Positions 3,499 to 27,069 of a stretch of DNA of 64,000 nucleotides are shown here, piece by piece. Under the pieces are notes generated by a model. It was not told where the DNA came from, ran no database searches, and saw only the letters and a list, made by a program, of their open reading frames with translations. The first letter of the stretch is position 1, and each line of letters begins with the position of its first letter. The position numbers and the translations under genes are program-made. Source of the stretch: an uncultured Oxalobacteraceae bacterium (GTDB taxonomy: Bacteria > Pseudomonadota > Gammaproteobacteria > Burkholderiales > Burkholderiaceae_D); assembly GCA_903862415.1 (NCBI GenBank), contig CAIOYD010000057.1, positions 1-64,000 on the forward strand, given 5' to 3'.

Positions 3499-3535
3499 TG
3501 CTTCTTGCACCAGTTCAAATGGAGTAAAGTAAATC

Positions 3536-5920: not shown

Positions 5921-5935
5921 TTGGAGTGGTTAGCG

Positions 5936-6895: not shown

Positions 6896-6945
6896 CAAGT
6901 ATTTATTCTGAAAATGAATTTGGAATTTAACAGGAGAGGTAAAAA

Positions 6946-8565: not shown

Positions 8566-9591
8566 ATGGACTTGCCCCATCACAGCGCCGCTTCCAGTCG
8601 AGGCAGGCCGACTACCAAGGCTTTGCCTTCAGTAGATCAAACCAGACGCGTCGTCACATCTAGTGATGCGGACGACCATGCCAGAAATCTTAGTAGCTGG
8701 AACCAGAGATACGACCAGTTTTCCCCAGGAACATTCGTTGGCCAGATTGCTGAATTATGGTTGCCCGATACTCAGCTGTATCTGGAAACTACCAGTCAGG
8801 TTTTACATCAGTCATGCTCTTCCTGGGTCAATTCCCTGTGGTTTGGAATTCCGGTTCTGAAAGGTGAAAACGCCTACATTGGCAATCAGCAGATCCCCGA
8901 TGCCGCCCTGGCTATGAAGCGCGGTGGTGCTGATTTCAAGTTGGTCACACCGGCCAATTTTCAAATTTTAGGCATCTCGATAGACGAACATATCTTCACC
9001 CGCTATCTGCAGGAAATCGAGCACATTGATCGCTTTAATGTATTGGATAAAAGCGAAGTATTGCAGGTGGATATGGAGAGAAAACGGGAAGTGGTAAGCG
9101 AACTCAACCGCATTTTATTTGAAAACAATGTATTGCCGACGGAAGATGCGTTGCATCTGTCGGCCTCATTGCAGGATCAGATTCTGATGGCGATTGTACC
9201 GTTGTTGGTGTCGGCAACCGTGCCGGAAGACCGGTCATCCTGCAAGCAGTTGAACCGTATGCGCATTGTTGAAAAAATGCGCGAATATTATCTACAGCAT
9301 ATCGACGAAGAAATCAGCATTCCTGATTTTTGTCGTTATCTTAAAGTCAGCCGACGCACTCTTCAATATTGCACTGAAGATGTGGTGGGCATGTCGCCGG
9401 CTGCATTCATCCGTTGTTTGCGGCTCAACAGTGTCCGGCGCGAGTTGTTCTTTGGTGACCGCGACACACACATCACCGATGTGGCCATGTCTTGGGGTTT
9501 TTGGCATCTGAGTCAGTTCGCGGCTCATTACCGAAAACTGTTTGACATGCTGCCGTCCGAAACCTTGAATCACGCTAAAAAGTGTTATTGA
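8566..9591 (+). CDS. eutR: AraC-family regulator, EutR-like
   Basis: A 341-residue transcription factor. The N-terminal 230 residues form a ligand-sensing region without a recognisable cupin motif. The C-terminal 100 residues carry the two AraC helix-turn-helices: ISIPDFCRYLKVSRRTLQYC, then the ITDVAMSWGFWHLSQFAAHYRKLF block. The aromatic-rich second motif and overall length match EutR, the activator that responds to ethanolamine plus adenosylcobalamin in enterics. Here it is upstream of the operon and on the same strand, whereas eutR is the last gene in Salmonella and E. coli. It has its own promoter region. The symbol is assigned from domain pattern plus position. Confidence 0.82.
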   Translation: MDLPHHSAASSRGRPTTKALPSVDQTRRVVTSSDADDHARNLSSWNQRYDQFSPGTFVGQIAELWLPDTQLYLETTSQVLHQSCSSWVNSLWFGIPVLKGENAYIGNQQIPDAALAMKRGGADFKLVTPANFQILGISIDEHIFTRYLQEIEHIDRFNVLDKSEVLQVDMERKREVVSELNRILFENNVLPTEDALHLSASLQDQILMAIVPLLVSATVPEDRSSCKQLNRMRIVEKMREYYLQHIDEEISIPDFCRYLKVSRRTLQYCTEDVVGMSPAAFIRCLRLNSVRRELFFGDRDTHITDVAMSWGFWHLSQFAAHYRKLFDMLPSETLNHAKKCY

Positions 9592-9806: not shown

Positions 9807-11204
9807 ATGAGTAGTCAGCAGGCAGGAACAGCAAATCACGGTGAATTGAAACGTACGCTAACGACGCTTCAGCTTTGGGGTATCGCAGTCGGCCTGGTGA
9901 TCTCGGGTGAATATTTTGGCTGGAGTTACGGTTGGGCTGCAGCAGGTACGCTCGGGTTTGTGGTGACCTCAGTTTTTGTTGCGGCGATGTACTCCACATT
10001 TATTTTCAGTTTTACCGAGTTGACTACTTCCATTCCACATGCCGGTGGTCCGTTTGCGTATGCCAAACGCGCCTTTGGCCCGGTAGGTGGTTATATTGCC
10101 GGCGCATCGACTCTGGTTGAATTCGTCTTCGCACCGCCAGCCATTGCACTAGCCATCGGCGCTTATCTGCATATTCAATTTCCGGGACTTGATCCTAAAA
10201 ATGCGGCACTGGGTGCGTACATCGTTTTCATGGGTCTCAATATCGTCGGCGTGGCACTTGCCGCGACGTTTGAGTTGGTGGTGACGCTGCTTGCAATATT
10301 TGAATTACTAGTGTTTATGGGTGTTGTTTCGCCCGGGTTTTCATTAGCCAATTTTGTTAAAGGTGGCTGGGCTGGTCAAGATCATTTCAGTCTGTCGTCG
10401 ATACCGGGAATTTTTGCCGCGATCCCGTTTGCGATCTGGTTCTTTCTGGCCATTGAAGGTGTGGCGATGGCGGCTGAAGAAGCTAAAGAACCGAAGCGTT
10501 CGATTCCGATTGCCTATGTGACCGGCATTCTGACCTTGTTGCTGCTGGCCATAGGCGTCATGGTGTTTGCCGGTGCAGCCGGTGACTGGACCAAACTGGC
10601 CAACATCAATGATCCATTACCTCAGGCGATGAAATATATCGTCGGTGAAAATAGCAGCTGGTTACATATGCTGGTGTGGATAGGTCTGTTCGGCCTGATC
10701 GCATCGTTCCACGGCATTATTCTGGGTTATTCACGTCAGATTTTTTCCTTGGCCCGAGCAGGTTATCTGCCGCACTATTTCGCTAAAGTTCATCCGCGCT
10801 TCAACACGCCGCACCGGGCCATTTTGGCTGGCGGTGTGGTCGGGATCGCGGCTATTTACAGTGATGAATTAATCACACTTGGTGGTCAGACTCTGACAGC
10901 CAATATCGTCACCATGTCGGTATTTGGCGCCATCGTAATGTACATCATCAGCATGCTGTCGCTGTTCAAATTACGGCGCACGGAACCGGATATGGAGCGC
11001 GCCTATAAAACCCCTTTTTATCCATACTTCCCGGCGTTTGCCTTGTTCGGCGCACTGGTTTGTCTGGCTACGATGATTTATTTTAATGTGTTGATGGCAG
11101 CCATTTTCTGCGGATTTTTGTTGCTCGGTTATGGGTATTTTCATACCACCAGACACCAGCGCGCCATGGCCGCACCGGACGCCCTCACTGACGCTGCCAT
11201 TTAA
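9807..11204 (+). CDS. eat: Ethanolamine permease, APC superfamily
   Basis: A 465-residue inner-membrane transporter with about 12 hydrophobic segments and the Eat signature at the N-terminus: [20 protein letters not shown], then [19 protein letters not shown] and [23 protein letters not shown]. It is a member of the amino acid-polyamine-organocation family known to import ethanolamine. It replaces EutH, the carrier used by enteric eut operons. It lies 11 bases before eutS, so it is probably part of the same transcript. Confidence 0.92.
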
Positions 11205-11215
11205 AAGGTCTGAAC

Positions 11216-11572
11216 TTGAAACCGAACGATAACAGTGTGATTAAGGAACGCGTGATTCAGGAATTCGTTCCTGGCAAACAAGTCACGCTCGCTCATTTGA
11301 TTGCGCATCCAACCAGCGATCTCAGTACCAAGATTGGCGTGCCTTGCACAGATGCGGTCGGGATTATGACCCTGACGCCAGGTGAAACGTCGATTATCGC
11401 CGGTGACATTGCAACCAAAGCAGCCGAAGTGCAGATCGGATTTTTGGATCGTTTTAGTGGCGCGCTGGTTATTTACGGCTCGGTTGGTGCTGTTGAAGAG
11501 GCGTTGGCTCAGGTGCTGTATGTGTTGGGTCAACAGCTGGGCTATTCAATCTGTCAGAGTACAAAAACATAA
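11216..11572 (+). CDS. eutS: Microcompartment shell protein EutS
   Basis: A 118-residue single-BMC-domain shell protein, nearly collinear with enterobacterial Eut[41 protein letters not shown] and [20 protein letters not shown]. This permuted BMC type forms bent hexamers at shell edges. Translation appears to begin at TTG, seven bases after AAAAGG; the protein then carries about five more N-terminal residues than E. coli EutS. It is the first shell gene of the operon. Confidence 0.95.
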
Positions 11573-11574
11573 AT

Positions 11575-12030
11575 ATGGATCGGTCGAACGCGTTCGTATT
11601 GCTGGGTGGTGTGGGTGTGGGTAAAAGTAGTTTGTTCAGATTGCTGTTCAATAAAAGTGAAGCAGTCCGAAAAACCCAGGCGGTAGTTTTTGAATCTAAC
11701 CGTGGTCTGGATACCCCCGGCGAATTTTTCAGTCACCCGCGTTTATACCACGCATTGATCCAGACTCTGGTCGATGTTGGAACGATAGTGTACGTACACG
11801 ATGGCACCGATAGATTGTGCCGTTTGCCACCGGGACTGTTAAAGATTTATAGCGGCAAGCGATTGGTCGGCGTGATTACCAAAATCGACAAGCCTGAATG
11901 CGATCTGGAATTTATTGAAAAATTATTGCGTGAAAATGGGTTTGATGACCGGATCTTTAAGATCTCCAACATGCAGCAAGAATCGGTAGTGGAGTTGAGA
12001 AATTACCTGTTTTCCGGGCAGACCGACTAA
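11575..12030 (+). CDS. eutP: EutP, GTPase-like ethanolamine utilisation protein
   Basis: A 151-residue P-loop protein with Walker A GGVGVGKSSL (residues 11-20), the EutP-specific KTQAVVFESN and DTPGEFFSHPRLYHALIQTL (switch/G3 region), and VITKIDKPE (the G4 TKxD motif). Family members are reported as GTPases, with an acetate-kinase activity described for some EutP/PduV relatives. The start is two bases after the eutS stop, so the two are likely coupled. Position eutS-eutP matches the enteric operon. Confidence 0.93.
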   Translation: MDRSNAFVLLGGVGVGKSSLFRLLFNKSEAVRKTQAVVFESNRGLDTPGEFFSHPRLYHALIQTLVDVGTIVYVHDGTDRLCRLPPGLLKIYSGKRLVGVITKIDKPECDLEFIEKLLRENGFDDRIFKISNMQQESVVELRNYLFSGQTD

Positions 12031-12052
12031 AACATTTATGGATTAGGGAAGT

Positions 12053-12787
12053 ATGAAAATTTTAATTTCAGCAAACGTCGTCAGGCTGGAACATGCAGCG
12101 GGTCGTTTGACTATCGCGGCAACGCCGGCAACGGCCATTATTACGCCAGAAGCCCGGGTGGTAGCGACCAAGCTGGGCGTGAAGTTCGTCGATCAGCCCA
12201 TTGCTGTGCCTGTACTTATACCTGCACCGATCAGTCAATCGCAGCATAGCAGCGGCCTGTACGAAGCGGTGCGCGCTAAAGTATTGCAGCAACTTCCAAC
12301 GGGCTCGGTCAGTGAGGAAGTTGTCAGGCAGCTGATTGAAAAAGTGATCAAAGAAGATCGCACAGCAGCGCGCATGAAAACGCCGGTTGAGGAGCGCACA
12401 CCGAATTACACGTTTCAACAAATTGCCGGAAAAATCAAGCGCGTCAAAGGCGAGTCGGTAAATTTTGGAAAACTGAAAGCGAACTCAGCTCTGGAAAGTA
12501 TCGGCGTTGCGGATGTAGTGACTGCAGCCGATGGCAGCTCCATGGCTGCCGGTTATATGGAATGGAGTAATTCGTTTTTTCCCTGGACCTTAAATTACGA
12601 TGAAATCGACGTAGTGCTGGAAGGTGCATTGCATATCCGTTGCGATGGGCAAGAGGTGATTTGCCAGCCAGGCGACGCGGTGTTTATCCCCAAAGGTTCC
12701 AGCATTGAATTTGGCACACCTACTTCTACACGATTTTTTTACGTCACCTATCCGGCAAACTGGCAGGAACAAAAGGGAGCCGTCTGA
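12053..12787 (+). CDS. eutQ: EutQ, cupin-fold acetate kinase-type protein
   Basis: A 244-residue protein. The C-terminal cupin (about 125-240) contains MEWSNSFFPWTLNYDEIDVV and CQPGDAVFIPKGSSIEFGTP, typical of EutQ. The N-terminal region starts with a short strand-helix segment (ITPEARVVATKLGV) followed by a linker and the helix SEEVVRQLIEKVIKED, which may help targeting to the microcompartment. EutQ has been linked to acetate kinase activity and shell assembly in Salmonella. Its stop overlaps the eutD start by one base. eutT, which follows eutQ in enterics, is absent. Confidence 0.93.
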   Translation: MKILISANVVRLEHAAGRLTIAATPATAIITPEARVVATKLGVKFVDQPIAVPVLIPAPISQSQHSSGLYEAVRAKVLQQLPTGSVSEEVVRQLIEKVIKEDRTAARMKTPVEERTPNYTFQQIAGKIKRVKGESVNFGKLKANSALESIGVADVVTAADGSSMAAGYMEWSNSFFPWTLNYDEIDVVLEGALHIRCDGQEVICQPGDAVFIPKGSSIEFGTPTSTRFFYVTYPANWQEQKGAV

Positions 12788-13839
12788 TGGATATGATTGC
12801 CGATTGCGCTAAATGGTGCCAGCAAAATCCAGGCAGCGTGGTGTTTCCTGACGGTCTGGATGAACGAGCACTGCGTGCCGCCAATACGCTGGCCGAGAAT
12901 GGCTACATGATTCCGGTGTTGCTGGGTAACCCGATGGAAATCCATTCATTGGCTGTGTCCAAGGGCATAGCAATGGGTTCGGTACGCATCATTGATCCGG
13001 CTACCTCGAACCGGCTTGATGCCTACAGCGATGAGTTGTATGCGCGCTTAGCCAGTAAGGGCGTGTCGCTGGAAGACGCCAAAAACCATCTGCTGAACCC
13101 GCTGTGGTTTGGGGCCATGATGTTGAAAATGGGCGATATCGATTGCTGCGTCGCTGGCAATTTATCGTCCACGGCATCCGTACTCAAAGCAGCACTGCGT
13201 GTCATCGGCGCGGTCAAGGGCATGAAAACAGTCTCCAGTCTGTTCTTTATGATCGCTCCGGACGATGGTCGGGTATTGGGGTTTTCCGATTGCAGCGTGG
13301 TGCCTGAACCCACTGTTGAGCAATTGGCCGACATTGCCATCAGCTCAGCGGATAACTATTTCAATGTCACCGGGATTGAGCCTCGGGTGGCGATGTTGTC
13401 GTTTTCGACGATGGGTAGTGTGAATCATTCGGCGGTCACGCCAACCCAGCAGGCAGTAGCACTGATTAATCAACGCCGACCAGACATCAAAGTGGGCGGG
13501 GAATTGCAGTTTGATGCCGCATTTGTACCCTCGATCGCAGCGCAAAAAGCGCCCAACGGGATTCTGTCCGGTGACGCCAACGTATTTATATTTCCGTCAT
13601 TAAGCGCGGGCAATATCGGTTACAAAATTGCCGAACGGTTGGGTGGTTGTACTGCGCTAGGTCCGATGATTCAGGGGTTGGGCATGCCTATGCATGATTT
13701 ATCGCGCGGCTGCAGCGCGAAAGATATGGTTGAAGTATCTCTTTTGGCTATGAAGATGGCTTTTGGTGGTGGGCATGGTGTGATGCCTTTGAGCGACGTG
13801 AAGAATGCAAATTCTGCTATGTCATTGAAACAGCGTTGA
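12787..13839 (+). CDS. eutD: Phosphotransacetylase EutD
   Basis: A 350-residue phosphate acetyltransferase of the PTA/PTB fold that converts acetyl-CoA plus phosphate to acetyl phosphate and CoA, recycling CoA for EutE inside the compartment. Motifs include CCVAGNLSSTASVLKAALRVIG, RVAMLSFSTMGS and GGELQFDAAFVPSIA, and the C-terminal LGPMIQGLGMPMHDLSRGCSA. Length and N-terminal MDMIADCAKWCQ agree with EutD rather than the longer housekeeping Pta. Its start is in TGATG overlap with eutQ. Confidence 0.93.
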   Translation: MDMIADCAKWCQQNPGSVVFPDGLDERALRAANTLAENGYMIPVLLGNPMEIHSLAVSKGIAMGSVRIIDPATSNRLDAYSDELYARLASKGVSLEDAKNHLLNPLWFGAMMLKMGDIDCCVAGNLSSTASVLKAALRVIGAVKGMKTVSSLFFMIAPDDGRVLGFSDCSVVPEPTVEQLADIAISSADNYFNVTGIEPRVAMLSFSTMGSVNHSAVTPTQQAVALINQRRPDIKVGGELQFDAAFVPSIAAQKAPNGILSGDANVFIFPSLSAGNIGYKIAERLGGCTALGPMIQGLGMPMHDLSRGCSAKDMVEVSLLAMKMAFGGGHGVMPLSDVKNANSAMSLKQR

Positions 13840-13887
13840 AAAGGCACTGGCCTTGTAGACGGATATTAATTATCTAAGGAGTTTGTT

Positions 13888-14181
13888 ATGGAAGCATTAG
13901 GAATGATTGAAACCAGAGGTCTGGTGGCGTTGATTGAAGCGTCAGATGCCATGGTGAAGGCGGCGCGTGTCAAGTTGGTGGGTTATCAGCAAATTGGTGG
14001 TGGACTGGTCACTACCATGGTGCGTGGTGATGTGGCCGCCTGTAAGGCAGCAACCGACGCGGGTGCAGAGGCGGCAAAACGTTATGGCGAACTGATCGCT
14101 GTACACGTCATTCCACGCCCGCATGGTGATCTTGAAGCAGTATTTCCAATCAAGATGACCGAAGGCGGAATCGTCGATTAA
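13888..14181 (+). CDS. eutM: Microcompartment shell hexamer EutM
   Basis: A 97-residue BMC-H protein that is almost the textbook EutM sequence: [20 protein letters not shown], the pore loop QIGGG, then [20 protein letters not shown] and [15 protein letters not shown]. It forms the flat hexameric facets of the shell. It has a strong AAGGAG ribosome site. It is followed by an unusually long gap before eutN. Confidence 0.96.
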
Positions 14182-14362
14182 GTTAACACGATGCCGGTTT
14201 CGGCGCCATTGTTTTTCGGGTGGGGATTCGTCTGAATCGACGTAATTCCCCCAACTTTCGGGACGATGTTAATTCGGTTAGAAGTTATCTGATGTTCTGA
14301 TTGCCGCTCGCAGAACGCGGTGCTGTCGCATGCAGAACAGGATAATTACGTAAGGACACAAG
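14182..14362 (+). other. 181-bp structured gap between eutM and eutN
   Basis: There is no open frame here. The strand can fold: GTGGGGATT faces AATTCCCCCAAC around an inner GATTC/GAATC stem, and TTAACACGAT near the start resembles the complement of ACGATGTTAA further on. This is much longer than the other gaps within the operon. It may process or attenuate the message so that shell proteins and enzymes are made in different amounts. Inference only. Confidence 0.3.
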
Positions 14363-14647
14363 ATGAAGCTTGCAATCGTTGTGGGGCAGGTTGTTGCAAC
14401 AGTTAAGTGTCACAGTCTGGTGGGTGACCCTTTATTGTTGATACAGTTTTTGGATGGTAATGGTGTGCCATGTGACGCATTGAACGTTGCTACCGATCCG
14501 ATCGGTGCCGGAAATGGCGAGTGGGTATTGGTCGTGGAAGGAAGTTCAGCTCGCCTGGCCAGTAAAACTGCCGGTGCTACCGATCTCAGTATCGTCGGCA
14601 TAGTCGATGAAGTAACGGTCAAGGGCAGCTCGCTGTTTCATAAATAG
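14363..14647 (+). CDS. eutN: Microcompartment vertex pentamer EutN
   Basis: A 94-residue EutN/CcmL-family protein that forms the pentamers capping shell vertices. The typical MKLAIVVGQVVATVKCHSLVGDPLLLIQ start and AGNGEWVLVVEGSSAR segment are present. It is preceded by GTAAGGA at good spacing. It is the only pentamer gene in the window, which is sufficient for one shell type. Confidence 0.95.
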   Translation: MKLAIVVGQVVATVKCHSLVGDPLLLIQFLDGNGVPCDALNVATDPIGAGNGEWVLVVEGSSARLASKTAGATDLSIVGIVDEVTVKGSSLFHK

Positions 14648-14679
14648 CGGTGCCGATTGTCAGAATAAAAGGAATGATT

Positions 14680-16089
14680 GTGAATATTGACGCAAAAGAA
14701 ATTGAGCGGATTGTGCGTTCTGTGTTGAAAGAAAGCGCGCACAGTTCTGAAAAAACATCGGGTAAATTGTCGCATGGCCTGTTTGCCAGTTTAGACGATG
14801 CAGTCGCTGAGGCAGACAAGGCGCGACGTCAGGTGCGTAAAATTTCTGAGCGCATCAAGATTATCGACGCCATGCGTCAGGCTGGACATCAGCATGCCAA
14901 AGAACTGGCCGAACTTGCGGTGGAAGAAACCGGCATGGGGCGGGTTGACGATAAGACGGTAAAGAATAGTGCTCAGGCTTTGCACACGCCGGGTGTGGAA
15001 TGTTTGAGTGCGCGGGTCTTGTCGGGCGATAACGGCTTAACCCTGATCGAAAATGCACCCTGGGGCGTGATTGCTTCGGTGACCCCTTCGACCAATCCTG
15101 CGGCCACCGTCATTAATAATGCGATCAGCATGATTGCGGCTGGCAATTCGGTGGTATTTGCGCCGCACCCGGCTGCCAAGAAAGTATCGCAACGCACGAT
15201 CCTGTTGTTAAATCAGGCTATCGTGGCGGCTGGCGGCCCTGACAATTTGCTCACCACGGTGCAGGATCCGAATATCGAAACGGCGCAACGCCTGTTCAAA
15301 TATCCCGGTATCCACCTGCTGACCGTTACGGGCGGCGAAGCGGTTATCCATGAAGCGCGCAAACATTCCGATAAACGATTGATCGCTGCTGGTGCCGGTA
15401 ATCCTCCTGTGGTGGTGGACGAAACGGCAGACATCGCCAAGGCCGCGCGTGACATTGTATGGGGCGCCTCGTTTGACAACAATATTATTTGCGTCGATGA
15501 GAAAGAAATTGTTGTGGTCAGCAAAGTGTGTGATCAACTCAAAACCGAAATGACCAAACACAAGGCGATTGAACTGACCTCAAATCAGGCACGTCAGTTG
15601 CAAGATGTATTGCTGTCCAATATAGGTCCGGACGGCAAGGGCACGGTCAATAGAAAATGGGTCGGGCGCGATGCGTGCAAAATTGCCGCAGCGATTGGCT
15701 TGACGGTGCCGGAAGACACGCGTTTGTTGTTTGTGGAAACGGAACGCGATCACCCCTTTGCCGTGACTGAATTGATGATGCCAGTCATTTCCGTGGTGCG
15801 GGCTGCCAATGCTGATGAGGCTATCGATATAGCACTTATTCTTGAAGGCGGCTGCCGTCATACGGCCGCGATGCATTCGAAAAATCTTGACAATCTTGAC
15901 CGTATGGCCAGTGAAATTAACACCAGTATTTTTGTCAAAAACGGGCCATGTCTGGCCGGATTGGGATTTGGCGGCGAGGGATGGACCACGATGACAATTT
16001 CTACGCCGACTGGTGAAGGTGTCACTTCTGCTGCCACCTTTGTGCGCCAGCGCCGCTGTGTTTTGGCGGGTAATTTCCGCATCGTTTGA
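14680..16089 (+). CDS. eutE: CoA-acylating acetaldehyde dehydrogenase EutE
   Basis: Oxidises acetaldehyde to acetyl-CoA with NAD and CoA in the microcompartment lumen. I prefer the GTG at 14680, six bases after AAAGGA, over GTG 14650 in the ORF track, because it gives MNIDAKEIERIVRSVLKES. That is the amphipathic N-terminal encapsulation helix and aligns with the E. coli start. The aldehyde dehydrogenase fold follows: ENAPWGVIASVTPSTNPAAT, GAGNPPVVVDETADIA, the catalytic cysteine in FDNNIICVDEK, and the GLGFGGEGWTTMTI end. It follows eutN directly. Confidence 0.94.
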   Translation: MNIDAKEIERIVRSVLKESAHSSEKTSGKLSHGLFASLDDAVAEADKARRQVRKISERIKIIDAMRQAGHQHAKELAELAVEETGMGRVDDKTVKNSAQALHTPGVECLSARVLSGDNGLTLIENAPWGVIASVTPSTNPAATVINNAISMIAAGNSVVFAPHPAAKKVSQRTILLLNQAIVAAGGPDNLLTTVQDPNIETAQRLFKYPGIHLLTVTGGEAVIHEARKHSDKRLIAAGAGNPPVVVDETADIAKAARDIVWGASFDNNIICVDEKEIVVVSKVCDQLKTEMTKHKAIELTSNQARQLQDVLLSNIGPDGKGTVNRKWVGRDACKIAAAIGLTVPEDTRLLFVETERDHPFAVTELMMPVISVVRAANADEAIDIALILEGGCRHTAAMHSKNLDNLDRMASEINTSIFVKNGPCLAGLGFGGEGWTTMTISTPTGEGVTSAATFVRQRRCVLAGNFRIV

Positions 16090-16094
16090 CGTAC

Positions 16095-17504
16095 ATGTCA
16101 TCTAAAATAATTAACAGCGTTGGCATCGATGTCGGTACTACGACAACGCAAATTATTTTTTCGCAATTGGAATTGGTCAACATTGCGGCGATTTCGCAGG
16201 TGCCTAACTATGAATTCATCCGCAAAGACGTGATGTATTTCAGTCCGGTTATTTTCACGCCAGTGGATTTCGAGGGAAATATCCGTGTTCAAGAATTAAA
16301 ACAATTCATCGATATGCAATATGCGCAGGCCGGTTTTTCCATCTCCGACGTGGAGAGCGGGGCAATCATCATTACAGGGGAAACGCTCAAGGCAAAAAAT
16401 GCGCGCACCACCGTAATGGGCCTGTCCGAAGAACTCGGTGATTTTGTTGTTGCTACCGCCGGACCACATTTGGAATCGGTTATTTCCGGTCATGGTTCTG
16501 GCGCTGCGGATTATTCGAAGCAGCATTCAGACTGTGTTTTGAATATCGATATCGGTGGAGGCACGTCGAACTATGCTGTTTTTGAGGCCGGAAAACTGGT
16601 TGACACAGCCTGCCTGAATGTAGGTGGACATCTGGTGGAGCTGGGTGCTGACGGGCAAGTTAGTCATCTGCACAAGCCGGCGAAATTAATTTTTGAAGAC
16701 TGCTTTCCGGAGCCAGTAACACGTTTGAATGCTGTCCATATCGATGCCATCGCCCAACGTATGGCACAGTTGATTGTGGAAGTGATAGAAGGAAATATTA
16801 GCAGTCTGGCGCGTTCATTGTTGATGACGCCAGAGCTGAAAAAGAAGTATAGCTTCAACGCTATTTTCATTTCAGGCGGTGTAGGTGAATGTTATTACCG
16901 AACCGGTTTGAGCAATTTCGGCGATATCGGCCCGCAGCTAGCTGCCAGCCTGCACCAGAACGACCAACTCCAGCAGATGCCGGTGATGGAACCCAGACAT
17001 ACTTTGCGTGCCACTGTCATTGGTGCCGGGGTTCACACACTGTCATTATCGGGTAGCACCATCTGGTTGAATTTTGGAACACTGCCGATCCGGAATGTCC
17101 CTGTATTGCACCCGTTGGGTAATGAGCTGGATACACCGCAACAACTGATTGCAGCCTGGAAGGCAAGTGCTACCGCCCATGACATCGTGCCAGACATGGA
17201 TTGCTACGCGCTCAGCATTCCGGCCTTGTTTCCGGTGAGTTATAAATCCGTGCAATTTTGTTCAACGGCACTGCGTTTGTTTATGGAACAATTTCCAAAC
17301 AGCTTCTTCCCGCTGATCATTACTGCAAAACAGAATTTCGGCATGGCTCTCGGCATGGAATTACAACCATTTATGCAACATCGCGAATTAGTGGTCATTG
17401 ATGAAGTGGAAACGCGGGAATGGGACTACATCGATATCGGCAAGGGTCTGTTCGGCGATACGGTGGTGCCGCTGACGATCAAGTCACTGGCCTTTTCATC
17501 TTAG
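16095..17504 (+). CDS. eutA: EutA, ethanolamine ammonia-lyase reactivase
   Basis: An ASKHA-fold ATPase-like protein of about 469 residues that exchanges damaged cobalamin for intact adenosylcobalamin in EutBC. Signatures: SVGIDVGTTTTQIIFSQLEL (phosphate 1), IIITGETLKAKNAR, ATAGPHLESVISGHGSGA and NIDIGGGTSNYAVF (phosphate 2), and AIFISGGVGECYY. ATG 16095 is chosen over the TTG at 16086 because it matches the family N-terminus; it starts six bases after the eutE stop. The enteric genes eutJ, eutG and eutH that lie between eutE and eutA are missing. Confidence 0.94.
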   Translation: MSSKIINSVGIDVGTTTTQIIFSQLELVNIAAISQVPNYEFIRKDVMYFSPVIFTPVDFEGNIRVQELKQFIDMQYAQAGFSISDVESGAIIITGETLKAKNARTTVMGLSEELGDFVVATAGPHLESVISGHGSGAADYSKQHSDCVLNIDIGGGTSNYAVFEAGKLVDTACLNVGGHLVELGADGQVSHLHKPAKLIFEDCFPEPVTRLNAVHIDAIAQRMAQLIVEVIEGNISSLARSLLMTPELKKKYSFNAIFISGGVGECYYRTGLSNFGDIGPQLAASLHQNDQLQQMPVMEPRHTLRATVIGAGVHTLSLSGSTIWLNFGTLPIRNVPVLHPLGNELDTPQQLIAAWKASATAHDIVPDMDCYALSIPALFPVSYKSVQFCSTALRLFMEQFPNSFFPLIITAKQNFGMALGMELQPFMQHRELVVIDEVETREWDYIDIGKGLFGDTVVPLTIKSLAFSS

Positions 17505-18030: not shown

Positions 18031-19392
18031 ATGAAGTTAACGACGCAATTGAAAAAAGAGTTTTATCGATTTGCCGATATCAAGGAAGTCATGGCGAAGG
18101 CGAGTAATCCGCGCTCGGGCGACATCATGTGCGGCATCGCCGCAGTGAACGCAAAAGAACGGGTGGCCGCTAAATACGTGCTGAGCAATTTACTGCTGTC
18201 CGATATCCGTAATAATCCTGTGATTTCCTATGAAGAAGATTGCGTCACCCGGGTTATCCAGGATGCGGTCAATTCCACCGCGTATGCGCGAATCCAGAAC
18301 TGGACTGTGGGTGAATTAAGAGAGTGGATATTAAACGATAGAACTGCTTTGAGTGAAATTGAATTTTTGCGCAAGGGAATGACATCGGAGATGATCGCCG
18401 CAGTAGCCAAGATCTGCTCGAACGCGGATCTGATTTACGGCGCAAAAAAAATCCCGGTCGTTAAAACCGCCAACTCGGTTCTGGGTGCGCCGGGTACGTT
18501 CAGCAGCCGCCTGCAACCGAACGATGCACGTGATGACCTATCGAGTATCAAGGCGCAGATTTTTGAAGGTCTGTCGTATGGCGCGGGTGATGCGTTGATC
18601 GGCATTAATCCGGTGACGGATAACGTAGAAAGCTGCAAGCGCATGCTGGGACAAATCTATGAAGTCATTGATGCTTACGCCATTCCTACTCAGGGCTGCG
18701 TGTTGGCGCACGTGACGACGCAAATGGAAGCGATCCGTCAGGGTGCGCCTGCCGGGCTGATTTTTCAAAGCCTGTGTGGCAGCGAAAAAGGACTCAGGGA
18801 ATACGGTATTTCCATTGAGTTAATTGATGAAGCCTATGAGGTGGCCAAACATTACAGCCGCATCGCCGGCCCGAACGTGATGTATTTCGAAACCGGTCAG
18901 GGATCTGCCTTGTCGGCCAATGCCAATCACGGTGCCGATCAGATGACGATGGAAGCACGCAATTATGGGTTGGCCGCTAGATGGGATCCTTTCATGGTCA
19001 ACACGGTGGTTGGATTTATCGGTCCTGAGTATTTGTTTAATGACCGGCAGATTACTCGTGCTGGACTCGAAGATCACTTCATGGGGAAGTTGTCCGGATT
19101 GTCGATGGGGTGTGACTGCTGTTACACCAATCATGCCGATGCCGATCAGGATTCCAATGAAAATCTAGCGATACTGCTGGCTAGTGCTGGCTGTAATTTT
19201 ATGATCAACATGGCCATGGGCGAAGACACCATGCTGAATTATCAGACGCTGTCGTTTCATGATCTGGCAACGATACGCAAGGTACTTAATTTGCGGCCTG
19301 CTGCCGAATTTGAACGCTGGCTGGAGCGCCATGGCGTCATGGAAAATGGATGTCTGACCAGTCAAGCTGGTGATGCATCCATGTTCTTCTGA
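18031..19392 (+). CDS. eutB: Ethanolamine ammonia-lyase large subunit EutB
   Basis: The 453-residue catalytic subunit of coenzyme B12-dependent ethanolamine ammonia-lyase, which converts ethanolamine to acetaldehyde and ammonia. The TIM-barrel sequence is highly typical: [71 protein letters not shown] and [16 protein letters not shown]. Full family length. It forms the active site with the EutC gene 12 bases downstream. Expected to be inside the microcompartment through EutC. Confidence 0.96.
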
Positions 19393-19403
19393 AAGGACTG
19401 GAT

Positions 19404-20327
19404 ATGAATCAAAACAATATCGATAAAATCGTTCAGTCTGTGCTGGCTAAAATTGGCCATGAACAAACTGCGGCTGTGGTGCGATCTGCAGCCGCTGAGC
19501 CTGCAACGACTGTGCCTGCGAGTGCTGTACAGCCAACTGCGTTACTGTCTTCAGCGTCGGTCAGGCTCGACGCTGAAGACAGTAACGCCATTCACATTGA
19601 TGACCAGATCGGTGTGATCAATCCTAAGCGGGTGGAAGTGCTGCGCGACTTCGTCGGGAGTACTGCCGCCAGAGTTGCGGTGGGCCGTGCCGGGTTGCGG
19701 CCTAAGACCCGGGAATTATTGAATTTTCTTATTGATCATTCGCGTTCTAAAGACACTGTTTTAAAAGATTTTCCAGATGGATGGGTAGAAAAATCCGCTC
19801 TGCTGGAATTACGCACCGAGATCGTCGAAAAAGACCAGTTTTTGACCAGACCCGACCTAGGACGCAAGTTGTCGGCAGAGAGTGTTGTGATCGCACAGAA
19901 CCAATGTAAAAAGAATCCGCAGGTTCAGGTGATTGTCTCTGACGGACTTTCTACCGACGCTGTGGTGGCCAATTTTGATGAAATTATTCCGGCACTGCTG
20001 AACGGCTTAAACAGTAACGGGCTGGATGTGGGCACACCGATTTTTGTCCGACATGGACGGGTCAAGGTTGAAGATCATATTGGCGAAATTCTGTCTGCGC
20101 AGGTCGTGATTCTGTTAATCGGCGAACGTCCCGGCCTGGGGCAATCTGAAAGCTTGAGCTGTTATATGGTGCATAGCCCGACGGTGAGTCAGACGGTCGA
20201 ATCCGATCGTATTTGCATATCGAATATCCATTCGGCAGGCACGCCGCCGGTGGAAGCCGCTGCGGTGATTGTGAATTTGGCGAAGAAATTTTTACGCGAC
20301 GGTAAAAATCTCAGCACACAGAAATAG
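19404..20327 (+). CDS. eutC: Ethanolamine ammonia-lyase small subunit EutC
   Basis: A 307-residue small subunit that completes the cobalamin site. The N-terminal helix [15 protein letters not shown] is a probable encapsulation peptide. It is joined through an Ala/Pro/Thr-rich linker (about residues 25-70) to the conserved core: [48 protein letters not shown] and [17 protein letters not shown]. The linker is a little longer than in E. coli EutC. Its DNA contains a perfect 19-base inverted repeat, described separately, which is unusual inside a coding region. Confidence 0.95.
19541..19586. repeat. Perfect 19-bp inverted repeat inside eutC
   Basis: GTTACTGTCTTCAGCGTCG (19541-19559) and its exact reverse complement (19568-19586) flank an 8-base loop. 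The stem lies in the linker codons (about residues 46-61) of EutC. No T tract follows. It would form a very stable mRNA hairpin in the translated region. Confidence 0.95.
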
Positions 20328-20343
20328 AAAGAAGAATCTGGTT

Positions 20344-20994
20344 ATGGTAGAAATTGTCAGGTCAACAGTGCGAGCAGTACGCATCATCCCTGCCGTACAT
20401 GCCGCTTTGCGATTGCAGCTGAATTTGCCTCGTCATATTCACAGTCTCGGTCTGTTCACAGCCGACTCGGACGATGTGGCTTACATCGCTGCCGATGAGG
20501 CAACCAAACACGCCTCGGTGGAGGTGTTTCTGGGGAACTCGTTGTATGGCGGTGCCGCGCAAAGTGCTTCAATGACATCGGGCGAAGTGATCGTTGTTCT
20601 GGGAGGTCCGTCTCCCTCGGAAGTGCAGGCCGGACTTGACCGGGCTATTCACACCATCGAACACGGACCTGCTTTTCATAAGGCTAATGCGGCCGGCACA
20701 TCGACGTTTTTATCCTGTGTCATCGCTAGTGCCGGCAGCTATTTGTCGGCGCAAGCCGGCATCAACGTGGGCGAATCGTTTGCCTATCTGATTGCGCCGC
20801 CGCTGGAAGCAATTTACGGTCTGGATATGGCGCTCAAATCCGCCAACGTTGAATTGGCCCGATTTATTCATCCACCGTCGCATACGAATTTTTCCGGCGC
20901 GTTTCTGACCGGCGATGAGGCTTCCTGCGGCGCTGCCTGCGATGCTTTTTCCAGAGCAGTGATTGAAGTGGCCAATCGGCCGATACAGTTATGA
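20344..20994 (+). CDS. eutL: Microcompartment trimer shell protein EutL
   Basis: A 216-residue protein with two tandem permuted BMC domains (BMC-T), closely matching EutL: LPRHIHSLGLFTADSDDVAYIAADEATKH, GGPSPSEVQAGLDRAIHTIE and APPLEAIYGLDMALKSANVEL. EutL trimers have a large gated central pore and have been seen to bind ethanolamine and cobalamin. The stop overlaps the eutK start (ATGA), so the two shell genes are coupled. Confidence 0.95.
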   Translation: MVEIVRSTVRAVRIIPAVHAALRLQLNLPRHIHSLGLFTADSDDVAYIAADEATKHASVEVFLGNSLYGGAAQSASMTSGEVIVVLGGPSPSEVQAGLDRAIHTIEHGPAFHKANAAGTSTFLSCVIASAGSYLSAQAGINVGESFAYLIAPPLEAIYGLDMALKSANVELARFIHPPSHTNFSGAFLTGDEASCGAACDAFSRAVIEVANRPIQL

Positions 20995-21542
20995 ATACCC
21001 ACATCACGTCGATAGGCCTCGTTGAGGTCAAGGGGTTTATCAGCGCGGTCGAAGTGGCCGATGCCATGATTAAAAGCAGTGAGGTCAGAATTTATACCTA
21101 CCTCAAGTTGAACCCCGGTCTCATTACCATCGTTGTTGAGGGCGACCTTGGTGCTTGTGAGTCGGCTGTTGATGCGGGTGCCAGAGTAGCCACTAATCGA
21201 GGCACATTGGTCAGTGTTTTAGTTAAGGGCAAACCTGATGCTGCGATTGAATCTCTGTTGCGCAAGATGCTGCCGGTGAGCGCTGTCGCGCACGTAAAAT
21301 CAGTCAGGTCTACTGTGCCCGTCGTGCCAGTTGCGCCTGTGTTGGTTACGGAAAACGATTTAACAATGCAATCATGTTTGAACTTTTTGGCCGCTGAGCC
21401 GAATGGTAAATCGGTGGCTGAGATTAAAAAGCAATTCAAAGCTAGCACTAGCGACGTTTATGCGATCTTAAAAATGTTGGAGCATGACTGTAAGGTAGAA
21501 CGCGACAAGCGCCGCTACCGACTCTTGATTCAATCACACTAA
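20991..21542 (+). CDS. eutK: EutK: BMC shell domain with C-terminal helix-turn-helix
   Basis: 183 residues. Residues 1-90 are a BMC domain (ITSIGLVEVKGFISAVEVAD, then VEGDLGACESAVDAGARVA). A linker follows, and residues about 122-180 form a winged-helix-like module (SCLNFLAAEPNGKSVAEIKK, DVYAILKMLEHDCKVERDKRRYRL). This is the same architecture as enteric EutK, whose C-terminal domain is thought to bind nucleic acid. It is usually monomeric or a minor shell part. The start is coupled to eutL. Confidence 0.92.
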   Translation: MNTHITSIGLVEVKGFISAVEVADAMIKSSEVRIYTYLKLNPGLITIVVEGDLGACESAVDAGARVATNRGTLVSVLVKGKPDAAIESLLRKMLPVSAVAHVKSVRSTVPVVPVAPVLVTENDLTMQSCLNFLAAEPNGKSVAEIKKQFKASTSDVYAILKMLEHDCKVERDKRRYRLLIQSH

Positions 21543-21572
21543 CTTACTCTCATTACGAACACGGATCACGTT

Positions 21573-22892
21573 ATGCAAGCGCATGAAATCGCGGAAAAAA
21601 TCAGGAATGCCGGAGTGGTTGGATCAGGTGGAGCCGGCTTTCCCACTTACGTCAAATTTTCCAGCAAGGCCGACATTTTTCTGGTCAACGGTGCCGAATG
21701 CGAACCGATGTTGAAAGTTGACCAGCAGTTGATGGCTAAATATCCGGAGCTGCTCATACGCGGCATTGAATTGGGTATGACGGCGACCGGTGCAACCGAA
21801 GGTGTGATTTGTCTCAAGGAAAAATACAAGGAAGCTATTGCGGCGTTAACGCCGCTGTTGAACGATCACATTCGGATTCATATTTTGAAGGATGTCTATC
21901 CGGCCGGTGACGAAGTGATCACGATCTGGATGGCAACTGGCAGACGGGTGCCGCCCGGTGCAATACCGATCAGCATTGGCGTGGTCGTCAATAACCCGTT
22001 GACCCTGATCAACGTGGCCCGTGCGGTGGATGAGGGGATGCCCGTTATCACGCGCACCCTGACGATCAGTGGGGCGGTACATAAACCGTTGACAGTAACG
22101 GTGCCTATAGGAACGTCGATGGCACAGGTGTTGGCCATGGCGGGCGGGCCGACGATCGCCAATCCGGCCTATCTGAATGGCGGTCCGATGATGGGCAAGC
22201 TGTTTGACGATATCAATGCTCCCGTCACCAAAACAACCGGAGGATTGCTGGTTTTTCCGGCAGATCACATCTTGATCAAACGCCGCACGATCAGCCTGGA
22301 ACATGTCATCAAGGTCGCTAAAGCGACCTGTGATCAATGTAGTTTATGCACCGACCTGTGTCCGCGCCATTTCATCGGTCATGAGTTGCCGCCACATCTG
22401 ATCGTGCGTTCCGTTATCTATGACGATACCAACAAGCCGTCCACGCTATTGTCCGCATTGACCTGTTCGGAATGCGCCATTTGCGAGGCCTACGCCTGTC
22501 CCGTTGATATTTCACCAATGCGACTGAACGTGGCCATCAAGGAAAAGCTGCGTGCCGAGAGCGCGCGTTATGAGGGTGAGCTTTATCCGGCAGATCCTAT
22601 GGCAGAGCATCGGTTAATTCCGTCCACGCAGCTGGTTGGCCGAATAGCAGTCCGTCCCTATGTTTTGGATGCGCCATTGATTGAAGATGGCTGGGAGCCG
22701 GACAGCGTTACCCTGCCTTTATCTCAACATATCGGTACGCCTGCCAAACCAATAGTGAGCGTAGGTGATCGGGTGCGTTCAGGCCAGTTGATCGCGACCG
22801 TCTCACCGGATGATCTGGGTGTTCCATTACACGCAAGTATCAATGGTCACGTGACAGCAGTGACTGCCCATGCCATTTCAATTTCAACATAA
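21573..22892 (+). CDS. pduS: PduS-like flavo-iron-sulfur protein, first copy
   Basis: 439 residues with the PduS/RnfC-type layout: an N-terminal glycine-rich nucleotide/FMN segment (AGVVGSGGAGFPTYVKF), an acidic VNGAECEPMLKVD block, an SLBB region, two 4Fe-4S motifs (CDQCSLCTDLCP near residue 253 and CSECAICEAYACP near 298), and a C-terminal barrel-sandwich hybrid segment. In the propanediol system PduS is a NADH-dependent cobalamin reductase that binds the shell protein PduT. Here it follows eutK and precedes a pduT-like gene, and a second close copy lies downstream. Presence in an eut operon is uncommon. Confidence 0.88.
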   Translation: MQAHEIAEKIRNAGVVGSGGAGFPTYVKFSSKADIFLVNGAECEPMLKVDQQLMAKYPELLIRGIELGMTATGATEGVICLKEKYKEAIAALTPLLNDHIRIHILKDVYPAGDEVITIWMATGRRVPPGAIPISIGVVVNNPLTLINVARAVDEGMPVITRTLTISGAVHKPLTVTVPIGTSMAQVLAMAGGPTIANPAYLNGGPMMGKLFDDINAPVTKTTGGLLVFPADHILIKRRTISLEHVIKVAKATCDQCSLCTDLCPRHFIGHELPPHLIVRSVIYDDTNKPSTLLSALTCSECAICEAYACPVDISPMRLNVAIKEKLRAESARYEGELYPADPMAEHRLIPSTQLVGRIAVRPYVLDAPLIEDGWEPDSVTLPLSQHIGTPAKPIVSVGDRVRSGQLIATVSPDDLGVPLHASINGHVTAVTAHAISIST

Positions 22893-22907
22893 TCAAGGAT
22901 TAATTTT

Positions 22908-23453
22908 ATGCATTCCATCGGTTTGATCGAAACCAGCAGCATCGCCAAGGGCATTGAAGTTGGCGACATTATGGCCAAAACCGCCGACATCACGATTCTT
23001 GTGACTAAAACGATTTGCCCCGGTAAATATATCGTCATGGTAGGCGGTGATGTGGCTGCCGTAGAGGCGGCGGTGAATCAGGGTGAAATTGTCGGCGGAT
23101 CGACTGTCGTTGATAAGTTTCTGATTCCAAATATTCACGCCTCCATTTTGCCGGCAATCAGTGGTGCGACTTCGGCTGACTATTCGGGGGCTTTGGGTGT
23201 ATTGGAAACATACACGGTTGCCACCATGGTTGATTCAGCTGACGCGGCATTAAAGGCCGCTAACGTGACCTGCCTGCGACTGCATTTGGCCTTTGGAATC
23301 GGCGGCAAGTGTTACGGATTATTTACCGGCGACGTGGCGTCAGTCGAGGCAGCCATTAAAGTCGGTGCGGATTTGGCTGGTAGCAAGGGAATGTTGGTGC
23401 AGTACGTGGTGATTCCAAGACCGCATGCTGAAATGATTAAACACTTGCTGTGA
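22908..23453 (+). CDS. pduT: PduT-like iron-sulfur BMC trimer shell protein
   Basis: 181 residues with two BMC domains in tandem (IGLIETSSIAKGIEVGDIMA and LGVLETYTVATMVDSAD), matching PduT. The pore-facing cysteine that ligates one 4Fe-4S cluster at the trimer axis in PduT is kept in KTICPGKY (Cys37). The C-terminus IPRPHAEM also matches. It sits 15 bases after the first pduS-like gene and 62 bases before the second, giving a PduS-PduT-PduS unit that could carry electrons through the shell. Confidence 0.92.
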   Translation: MHSIGLIETSSIAKGIEVGDIMAKTADITILVTKTICPGKYIVMVGGDVAAVEAAVNQGEIVGGSTVVDKFLIPNIHASILPAISGATSADYSGALGVLETYTVATMVDSADAALKAANVTCLRLHLAFGIGGKCYGLFTGDVASVEAAIKVGADLAGSKGMLVQYVVIPRPHAEMIKHLL

Positions 23454-23473
23454 TAGGGCTGATCGCTAAAGTG

Positions 23474-23517
23474 GAACATAAGCAGAACATAAATAGAACA
23501 TAAGCGGAACATATAAT
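23474..23517 (+). repeat. Four 11-bp tandem repeats before the second pduS-like gene
   Basis: GAACATAAGCA, GAACATAAATA, GAACATAAGCG and GAACATATAAT follow each other without gaps from 23474; the start codon ATG at 23516 overlaps the last unit. No ordinary Shine-Dalgarno sequence is visible. The 11-base spacing puts each unit on the same DNA face. Confidence 0.9.
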
Positions 23518-24841
23518 GTTGAATATCATCGCCGATAAAATCAGACAGGCAGGCGTAGTCGGATCGGGCGGAGCCGGATTTCCTACCTATGTGAAATTTG
23601 CCAGTAAAGCGGAGATTTTTTTGGTGAATGGCGCGGAGTGCGAGCCAATGTTAAAGGTGGATCAGCAACTCATGGCCAACTATCCGGAGCAGCTGATTCG
23701 CGGCATAGAACTGGGAATGGAAGCGACAGGCGCCACCAAAGGTATTATCTGCCTGAAGGCCAAGTACAAGGCTGCTATTGCGGCTTTGCAGCCCTTGTTG
23801 AATGCACGTATCCGCATCCATATTTTGAAGGACGTGTATCCTGCCGGGGATGAAGTAATCACGATCTGGATGGCTACCGGGCGGCGTGTGCCTCCGGGCG
23901 ATATTCCGATCAGCATAGGCGTAGTGGTCAATAATCCACTGACTTTAATAAACGTGGCACGTGCCGTGGATGATGCTATGCCGGTTATTACGCGCACTCT
24001 GACGGTCAGTGGAGCAGTGCATAAACCGATCACGGTTACTGTGCCGATCGGAACATCGATGGCTGCCGTGCTGGTGATGGCCGGTGGCGCTACTATTGCT
24101 GATCCGGCCTATCTGAACGGCGGACCGATGATGGGCAAACTGATTACCGATACGCTGTCCAAAACTCCGGTCACCAAAACCACGGGCGGTTTGCTGGTTT
24201 TGCCGGGAGATCATATTTTAATCAGACGGCGCACGACCAGTATCGAACAAATCATGCGCGTGGCCGAAACCAACTGCGTGCAATGTAATCTGTGTACAGA
24301 CCTGTGCCCCAGACATATTATCGGCCACGAATTACCTCCGCACCTGCTGGTTCGTTCCAGTAATTTTAACAATATCGGTCTACCGGCAGTGCGTCTTTCA
24401 GCATTAACCTGTTCTGAATGCGCCGTCTGCGAGGCCTATGCCTGTCCGGTGGATATTTCGCCTATGCAGTTAAATGTTGCCTATAAGGCCGAACTACGAA
24501 AGCAGGGCCTGCGCTACGAAGGCACGCTGCGGCCTCTGGATGCTCTGGCCGACAGTCGCCTGATTCCATCGATGCGTATCATCGAACGCAATGCCATTGG
24601 CCACTACATTCTTGACGCACCGCTGATTGAAACCGACTGGCAACCGGATAGTGTCAATTTGCCGTTGCGTCAACATATCGGGGTTGCTGCATCTCCTATT
24701 GTCAGTATTGGGGAAGCAGTAGTCGCCAGACAGCTGATTGCCACTATCCCTTCGGGTGCGCTGGGTGTTCCCTTGCACGCCAGCATATCGGGTGTGGTGA
24801 CGGAGGTCTCTGAAGAACACATCACGATAGAAAGACGCTGA
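23516..24841 (+). CDS. pduS: PduS-like flavo-iron-sulfur protein, second copy
   Basis: 441 residues and very similar along its whole length to the copy at 21573 (both share SGGAGFPTYVKF, ILKDVYPAGDEVITIWMATG and AYLNGGPMMGKL). Both 4Fe-4S motifs are kept (CVQCNLCTDLCP and CSECAVCEAYACP), so the copy is not a decayed duplicate. Differences are concentrated at the C-terminal third and around the metal-cluster linker. It is the last gene of the eut locus; the next 570 bases are non-coding. The duplicate may form a heteromer with the first copy or serve the opposite face of the shell; that is inference. Confidence 0.88.
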   Translation: MLNIIADKIRQAGVVGSGGAGFPTYVKFASKAEIFLVNGAECEPMLKVDQQLMANYPEQLIRGIELGMEATGATKGIICLKAKYKAAIAALQPLLNARIRIHILKDVYPAGDEVITIWMATGRRVPPGDIPISIGVVVNNPLTLINVARAVDDAMPVITRTLTVSGAVHKPITVTVPIGTSMAAVLVMAGGATIADPAYLNGGPMMGKLITDTLSKTPVTKTTGGLLVLPGDHILIRRRTTSIEQIMRVAETNCVQCNLCTDLCPRHIIGHELPPHLLVRSSNFNNIGLPAVRLSALTCSECAVCEAYACPVDISPMQLNVAYKAELRKQGLRYEGTLRPLDALADSRLIPSMRIIERNAIGHYILDAPLIETDWQPDSVNLPLRQHIGVAASPIVSIGEAVVARQLIATIPSGALGVPLHASISGVVTEVSEEHITIERR

Positions 24842-25409
24842 TTAAGCAGTGTTTGCCCTCAGCCAGGAGTTGGGTGATGATGCGCTTCATATTGTCGGAA
24901 GTGATGTGGTTCAAATTCACCTATCCATCAAAATTTCAATGTAAGACAGCCTGAAACGTACACAAAACCGCTTTTGCTAAGTTTGAAAGTCGACAGAAAC
25001 GATTCGTAGCGGGTCGTGGAATTCTGTCATGGGTGCGCGCGGGAGTGATAGTTTCTGAGGATAGTAACTAATTAGGAAATTAAATTGCAAAAAATTGCCT
25101 CGGGTAAATAATTTATTTCAACATACTCTGCCCAGCCTATATTCAATTCTGAACTATTCGTTTAACCTTGATCGGGAACTTCTAAATTTCAGCACGATGT
25201 TTTGGGATGGTTAGTGGGTCAGGTCAAGCGACATGCCCAGAACAAGGAATGTAGTAGTACAACTGTCAATGCATAACGATGGATCGGCGCTAGTGCTTAG
25301 TATCTAGTCAGACTTAATTCCGAAATCGGCGTAATTCGGTTGGCCGAATCAGGGATTGGCGCCTTCCTCGACTATTGCATCTGAACCTTTAGATTTTAAG
25401 GAGTCAACC
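24842..25409. other. 568-bp non-coding stretch after the eut locus
   Basis: Stops occur in all frames and no gene is supported. I see no strong terminator hairpin with a T tract after the last pduS-like gene. The sequence just before 25410 carries AAGGAG, the ribosome site of the next gene. The composition is more AT-rich than in the operon and may mark the boundary of accessory DNA. Confidence 0.4.
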
Positions 25410-26210
25410 ATGAGTCATCCACTCAAACTTTTAAACACAAATCCGGCTTGGCCGTCGTTCACTGGTCAGGCAACTTTCATTGGATCTTCACCTAGTCAAC
25501 TTGTACATGTTTATGTGGACTCCACACTTGGGGTAGATGGAACACAGAATGCAAAGAATCTTATCGCTGATTCGGATCGAGTTCTTGGTATCAATCAAAA
25601 GATATTTGCTGTTCCGTCTCAATCGGTGAACGTTTTAATTTATGCCATAGGCGGAAAAACGGATGGGACAGGTGGTGCGGATCACGCTGCCTGTGATTTC
25701 CTGACTGGTGGCAACATCGAGGTATGCGCATCTTTTGGTAATCCGGCTCGTGTGAGTGCATTATTTGAGGCGGAATATAGCGAATGCTGCATGAATGGAA
25801 ATCTGTGCGGAGTGAGTACCGGTGAAGCGCTTTCACGGTGGTGCGCCACCGTGGTGAGTGGCAATGCACTGGCCGATTTCGCAACCGCGCCTTATTGGTT
25901 TAAGAATGGCATGCCGGACTTTGTGACAAAAACGGATAATACCGATCAGAACGGTCTTAGCACCGGATGCGCAATGGCATTCATATCCTGGCTGCGGTCA
26001 CTAGGCTTCGATCTCGATAAGATCGCGCCCGCCATGGTTGCGTTGGGTGCAAAAGGCGCGCTGGTTTATACCATGGCCATTATATCTACCACGGCCAAGA
26101 TGTCAATCATGGCCATGATATATATCTTGGCCATGTTATTTATCGCTCCATTAATCTATCTTGACGGCTGCGGAGAGTCGATGCAGATTTCATTGAACCC
26201 CACACATTAG
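25410..26210 (+). CDS. Uncharacterised protein with GGADHAACDF / SECCMNG motifs
   Basis: I set the start at ATG 25410 (after AAGGAG), giving 266 residues beginning MSHPLKLL. The body has a distinctive conserved-looking core: YAIGGKTDGTGGADHAACDF, EVCASFGNPARVSALFEAEYSECC, GVSTGEALSRWCATVV and a late STGCAMAFISWLRSLGFDLDKI. The HxxC / glutamate-rich pattern suggests a metal site or a protease-like fold, but I cannot name the family. The last 40 residues turn into methionine/isoleucine-rich hydrophobic sequence encoded by a palindromic DNA segment and probably do not belong to the original protein. No signal peptide. Confidence 0.6.
   Translation: MSHPLKLLNTNPAWPSFTGQATFIGSSPSQLVHVYVDSTLGVDGTQNAKNLIADSDRVLGINQKIFAVPSQSVNVLIYAIGGKTDGTGGADHAACDFLTGGNIEVCASFGNPARVSALFEAEYSECCMNGNLCGVSTGEALSRWCATVVSGNALADFATAPYWFKNGMPDFVTKTDNTDQNGLSTGCAMAFISWLRSLGFDLDKIAPAMVALGAKGALVYTMAIISTTAKMSIMAMIYILAMLFIAPLIYLDGCGESMQISLNPTH
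26072..26135. repeat. Imperfect palindrome in the 3' end of the 25410 gene
   Basis: Two 28-base arms rich in CATGGCCA / TGGCCATG (26072-26099 and 26108-26135) are imperfect inverted copies around an 8-base spacer. They encode the odd hydrophobic tail TMAIISTTAKMSIMAMIYILAM. Confidence 0.75.
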
Positions 26211-27068: not shown

Positions 27069-27069
27069 C

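Follow-up and report, generated by a model that had tools for sequence, protein, structure and literature searches.

Why would an ethanolamine utilization operon end with two pduS genes, one on each side of a single pduT? The question arises in a stretch of 64,000 nucleotides from an uncultured Oxalobacteraceae bacterium, here called the window. A complete eut microcompartment operon occupies positions 9807-24841 of its + strand, and the 3' end of this operon reads eutK-pduS1-pduT-pduS2. The doubled PduS-PduT-PduS arrangement had been proposed in the initial annotation, and the three open reading frames are indeed present, all on the + strand, at the coordinates below. An AraC-type regulator (8566) and a permease (9807) come first, followed on the same strand by eutS-P-Q-D-M-N-E-A-B-C-L-K and then by the three pdu genes.

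8566..9591, + strand: AraC-family regulator, EutR-like by position (HTH_18).
9807..11204, + strand: ethanolamine permease of the APC type (TIGR00908, over cut-off).
11216..12787, + strand: eutS, eutP and eutQ (domain matches).
12787..13839, + strand: eutD, Pta-type phosphotransacetylase (profile match).
13888..14647, + strand: eutM and eutN, shell proteins (profile matches).
14650..16089, + strand: eutE, acetaldehyde dehydrogenase, the putative NADH source in the lumen (profile match).
16086..17504, + strand: eutA, lyase reactivating factor (NCBIfam EutA models, E 1e-176, under the strict cut-off).
18031..20327, + strand: eutB and eutC, ethanolamine ammonia-lyase (NCBIfam, over cut-off).
20344..20994, + strand: eutL, shell protein (NCBIfam EutL).
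20991..21542, + strand: eutK, shell protein adjoining pduS1 on its upstream side (BMC domain).
21573..22892, + strand: pduS1, predicted NADH/FMN/2x[4Fe-4S] flavoprotein, nearer to the ancestral state (Pfam domains, RnfC relatives, a paralogue stem that is short in the tree of the C-half).
22287..22889, + strand: C-half of pduS1, codons 239-439, with the dicluster domain and RnfC_N; it contains every fixed paralogue difference.
22908..23453, + strand: pduT, shell trimer of the tandem-BMC type, with Cys37 in its pore (two BMC domains, PDB neighbours, conservation of Cys37).
23516..24841, + strand: pduS2, second PduS with a derived Fe-S half (Pfam, predicted structure, RnfC as best PDB folds, long stem in the C-half tree).
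24233..24838, + strand: C-half of pduS2, approximately codons 240-441 (identity along the gene, C-half tree, fixed differences).

The locus is EUT1-like. Profile searches found EutBC together with EutA, a Pta-type EutD and a shell of EutM, EutS, EutN, EutL and EutK, as expected for the EUT1 type. It is not a canonical EUT1 locus, having neither EutG nor EutT. Over the whole source genome (78 contigs, rated 100% complete), this is the only microcompartment locus. No B12 riboswitch was matched in the window at the Rfam gathering level. A 527-bp gap separates eutA from eutB (17505-18030) and holds no long + strand ORF; it is missing from the one other doubled operon that we found (in genome G559, below). 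This gap is possibly an inserted repeat or an internal promoter.

As for the surroundings, a DDE transposase gene lies upstream (629-1486, - strand). About 2 kb downstream of pduS2, a NikA-like mobilisation protein and a MobA/VirD2-type relaxase are encoded at 26757-29331 (+ strand). With these three genes the neighbourhood is mobile-looking. Directly upstream of the eut regulator, the region 1727-8277 encodes a DUF1302 porin, an MMPL-type exporter (assigned by eye), and YCF48-like and DUF1329 proteins; no counterpart of this cluster was seen beside the G559 operon. An ORF of 284 aminoacids downstream of pduS2 (25356-26210) had no Pfam match.

Both PduS proteins are intact. Each contains Complex1_51K, SLBB, Fer4_17 and RnfC_N, in that order and over the Pfam cut-offs, as well as all invariant residues of the family, and the two are 74% identical. 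The initial annotation held that both copies keep two 4Fe-4S motifs, and the cysteine spacing agrees. The first motif, C-x2-C-x2-C-x3-C, is formed by C253/256/259/263 in PduS1 and C254/257/260/264 in PduS2, and the second, C-x2-C-x2-C-x4-C, by C298/301/304/309 and C299/302/305/310. The second cluster site is not degenerate, since its spacing equals that given for Citrobacter PduS. In fold and sequence PduS matches RnfC, a protein that passes NADH electrons through FeS clusters. The AF2 model of PduS2 (pLDDT 92.4) has RnfC as its best PDB folds.

PduT has two BMC domains and, again as first annotated, retains the pore residue Cys37, here within CPGKY. This agrees with the pore motif C-(P/S/A)-G-(K/R/S)-(Y/F) (PMC6325248), and Cys37 is conserved in 40/40 PduT sequences compared. 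The match to NCBIfam eut_PduT scores below its cut-off (135.9 vs 250.3). The nearest PDB chains include PduT (3n79, 3vcd) and the "shell protein" 3pac. Another residue, Cys122 (window 23271-23273), is common to the window and G559, with Leu or Pro in the other 38 PduT compared.

The absence of eutG was also part of the original proposal. The gene order places no eutG between eutE and eutA, and the absence now extends to the iron-type alcohol dehydrogenases of the entire source genome: no PF00465 match (the EutG family) was found in a search that covers the iron type, as opposed to zinc-type or other alcohol dehydrogenases, and that detected the family in 13/14 control genomes. A hidden iron-type eutG elsewhere in the genome is thereby rejected. 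The G559 operon has no iron-type alcohol dehydrogenase either, yet five matches are found elsewhere in that genome. G1182 (Pseudothauera rhizosphaerae, locus L054) has a eutG-less eut operon with a single pduS and one weak match to the iron-type family, below cut-off. It is a candidate cultured organism for studying the proposed electron export.

We then looked at the distribution of the arrangement. Across 80 loci from public genomes encoding a PduS relative, some in stretches that end at contig ends, each fetched stretch has a single pduS, usually beside pduT. Two metagenome-assembled genomes have pduS-pduT on each of two contigs, Rhodoferax STC_110 (L039, L048) and Desulfosporosinus UBA5188 (L059, L070), which could reflect two operons or mixed strains. 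Many proteobacterial eut operons have the order eutK-pduS-pduT. Some of these have eutG (for example L035, L042, L053, L057), and single-pduS operons without eutG also occur (L038, L045, L046, L052, L054). Loss of eutG and doubling of pduS are therefore separate events, and the doubling is not supported as an account of the loss. Among eut loci sampled through EutL, five have eutG and no pduST in the fetched stretch, one has both and none lacks both. A class-wide EutL sample matched only the genome of the window itself and is too thin to show whether one of eutG and pduST substitutes for the other.

Searching overlapping sets of genomes (399 from the order, 394 from the family and 355 from relatives) for eut operons with two pduS genes around pduT gave one further doubled locus, in G559, which belongs to another genus of the same family. 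From the permease through pduS2, its operon has the same genes in the same order as that of the window, with 42 to 93% protein identity. Because it recurs in a second genus, the order is more than chance. No strong match to the operon was found in the other four genomes of the window's genus or in the other 14 of the G559 genus, and a plasmid collection held no close relative (best about 60%). Since the operon is sporadic and has relaxase and transposase genes nearby, it has likely moved horizontally as a whole.

Trees of the two copies give conflicting histories for the two halves of the gene. The C-half tree (dicluster plus RnfC_N) groups the sequences by paralogue, with support of 100/99 for the PduS2 pair and 97/81 for the PduS1 pair, and its stem is short for PduS1 and long for PduS2. 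The N-half tree (NADH/FMN plus SLBB) groups them by genome. Grouping by genome is rejected in the C-half (AU p 0.002) and the orthologue pairs are rejected in the N-half (p 0.009 and 0.0006), p-values that are somewhat optimistic, the breakpoint having been picked after viewing identity along the gene.

In G559 the cause is visible. From 43 bp upstream of the ATG to nt 377 the copies do not differ at all; there are 9 mismatches up to nt 714, and divergence sets in at about nt 732. In the predicted PduS2 structure this point falls in the loop 241-242, just before the helix that leads to cluster 1. Gene conversion homogenised the N-half in G559, and its tract ends where the two modules meet, shortly ahead of the dicluster domain. 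In the window, the two halves of the pair are 85% and 61% identical, and the N-minus-C difference of 0.245 exceeds 0.186, the highest value among 561 single-copy pairs. This is suggestive, short of proof, of an old conversion event in the genome of the window as well, the alternatives having AU p of 0.23 and 0.34. All of these data agree with a single duplication before the split and a later homogenisation of the NADH half.

Other histories were rejected. A recent strain-level duplication or an assembly error disagrees with the same arrangement, with orthologous C-halves, in another genus. Two independent duplications are rejected by the C-half tree at the AU p of 0.002. Decay of the second copy is inconsistent with the intact state of both copies and with the purifying selection that acts on each of them in both genomes; dN/dS between the genomes is well under 1 for each, as a rough ratio with dS near saturation.

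The differences between the copies are concentrated around one cluster. Fifteen residues are fixed differently between PduS1 and PduS2 in both genomes; all 15 fall in the C-half and ten of them, at residues 244-292, surround cluster 1. At positions 250, 254, 281, 283, 292 and 343, PduS2 differs from residues that the 34 single-copy PduS in the tree set conserve or commonly have. Residue 254 lies between cysteines one and two of cluster 1; all 34 of these single copies have E there, PduS1 has D and PduS2 has V. Elsewhere it is M, I or C in Firmicute PduS and I in RnfC, so V is not out of line with functional relatives. Removing an acidic side chain next to the cluster should raise the cluster's potential.

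The best explanation, to which we give a probability of roughly 40%, is that two NADH-oxidising PduS proteins in the lumen share one PduT exit, PduS1 being near-ancestral and PduS2 an electron-transfer specialist. The sequences show the gene order, the intact sites, the absence of an iron-type alcohol dehydrogenase, the orthology of the copies, their mosaic history and where they differ; the lumen location, the direction and role of electron flow and the division of labour are predictions. The lumen of this ethanolamine microcompartment would have no known alcohol dehydrogenase. EutE would produce NADH there, and NAD+ would have to be regained through pores or through PduS. With PduS1 and PduS2 seated on the lumenal side of the PduT trimer, electrons would pass from NADH to FMN and then through the two [4Fe-4S] clusters of PduS. 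The PduT pore cluster, of higher potential, would take them outward, and EutE would regain its NAD+. PduS oxidises NADH and binds PduT, with potentials of -150 mV for PduS and +99 mV for PduT (PMC2982820); outward flow would be downhill because the former lies below the latter. In terms of history, a single duplication of the gene would predate the separation of the two known host lineages, or of the operons that these carry. Since then, the NADH/FMN halves would have been kept alike, visibly by gene conversion in G559, while the Fe-S/RnfC halves diverged. PduS1 would have stayed close to the ancestral corrin-reductase-type protein, and PduS2, with its changed cluster-1 surroundings, would be the copy specialised in electron transfer.

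Several points count against this explanation. The demonstrated activity of PduS is corrin reduction and the lyase depends on adenosylcobalamin, so that pduS could be accounted for by its cobalamin role and nothing else. Loss of eutG does not require two copies, given the five eutG-less operons with one pduS. Only two doubled loci are known, and the pores of the shell could be another way out for NADH, a route that has been considered for Pdu (PMC3471927).

The main rival to electron export, which we regard as possible rather than likely, is that both PduS proteins are lumenal cobalamin reductases that act on damaged cobalamin and serve an adenosyltransferase. The second copy would then provide dose or act on another corrinoid oxidation state, with PduT as an anchor only. 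Corrin reductase activity and cobalamin binding were shown for Citrobacter PduS (PMC2982820), and ethanolamine ammonia-lyase is B12-dependent. The source genome also has one adenosyltransferase gene, its sole Cob_adeno_trans match, on contig C24. However, this gene is outside the operon, and the operon itself has no adenosyltransferase or EutT gene. In addition, B12-free GRM compartments also have PduS with PduT (PMC6325248), and dose alone would not maintain paralogue-specific Fe-S halves across two genera.

In a stronger form of the export explanation, PduS2 takes the place of EutG as a dedicated electron-exporting NADH dehydrogenase inside the lumen, and its cluster 1 is adjusted away from reducing corrins. 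The compartment would respire across its shell via PduT and PduS1 would keep the cobalamin job. We consider this form doubtful.

An improbable arrangement is a PduS1-PduS2 heteromer on the PduT trimer, with like NADH halves packed together and unlike Fe-S halves turned toward different partners. It is consistent with the way in which the halves differ, with pduT being flanked by pduS genes in both genomes and with the unusual PduT residues, such as Cys122, that both share.

We find it quite improbable that the duplication has little functional weight, as an old tandem copy riding in a horizontally moving operon. Its sporadic occurrence (0/4 other genomes in the window's genus, 1/15 in that of G559), the nearby transposase and relaxase genes and the eutG-less operons with a single pduS agree with such a history. 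The selection that keeps both copies intact in both genomes argues against it, as does the G559 conversion ending where the Fe-S half starts.

Lastly, the initial annotation had placed the second PduS on the other side as one option. A second PduS on the cytosolic face, where electrons from PduT would reduce NAD+ or another carrier, matches the gene order around pduT, but it is highly improbable: transfer from PduT (+99 mV) to NAD+ (about -320 mV) is strongly uphill, which speaks against an NAD+ reductase, and nothing in the two sequences, such as an N-terminal extension on either, points to different locations. An acceptor of high potential in place of NAD+ would be compatible with these values.

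What is new here is the doubling of pduS, not electron export. Of the initial annotation, the doubling, the intact motifs and the absence of eutG stand. The export idea was already published for other compartments, and the lack of eutG leaves the doubling unexplained, given the several operons with one pduS that lack eutG too. Export via PduS and PduT was suggested for PDU in 2010 (PMC2982820), GRM loci followed in 2019 (PMC6325248), and in 2021 it was proposed as the exit from a Bilophila compartment without alcohol dehydrogenase (PMC8667426); a related idea for Listeria eut involves a PduT-like shell protein only (PMC8547011). As for the doubling, which the initial annotation did not know to be described, the literature searched, with most subscription papers outside it, held no report of pduS-pduT-pduS or of such a mosaic history. 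Several pduS in one locus were reported once, four in a PDU-like locus of C. kluyveri (PMC4207490). Whether electrons pass through the iron-sulfur shell protein of any microcompartment has been an open question since at least 2010 (PMC2982820). The window offers one shared NADH module, two different Fe-S modules and no iron-type alcohol dehydrogenase to confuse an assay. Comparing PduS1 and PduS2 against PduT and cobalamin could separate the export role from the cobalamin reductase role.

Compared with known systems, the PDU PduS of Citrobacter and Salmonella has the same four domains, both cysteine motifs with equal spacing and a PduT partner. The window differs in its eut operon, its two copies, the altered cluster-1 loop of PduS2 and an operon without an adenosyltransferase gene. 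EUT1-type operons of Rhodoferax, Thauera, Wohlfahrtiimonas and Morganella mostly have eutK-pduS-pduT in the same place, some without eutG, but every locus seen has one pduS. The isethionate compartment of Bilophila (PMC8667426) likewise has a locus without alcohol dehydrogenase and a proposed PduS/PduT export, but it uses a glycyl radical lyase, is B12-free and has one PduS. The C. kluyveri locus (PMC4207490), compared by description only, shares the presence of more than one pduS per microcompartment locus; it is a reduced PDU, and its copies are not reported as flanking one pduT. Finally, RnfC and PduS are alike in their NADH/FMN and two [4Fe-4S] make-up, in sequence and in fold. RnfC_N is N-terminal in RnfC and C-terminal in the window PduS, and the other rnf genes (rnfABCDGE) are not in the operon. 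The window PduS would work like RnfC but is not an RnfC member.
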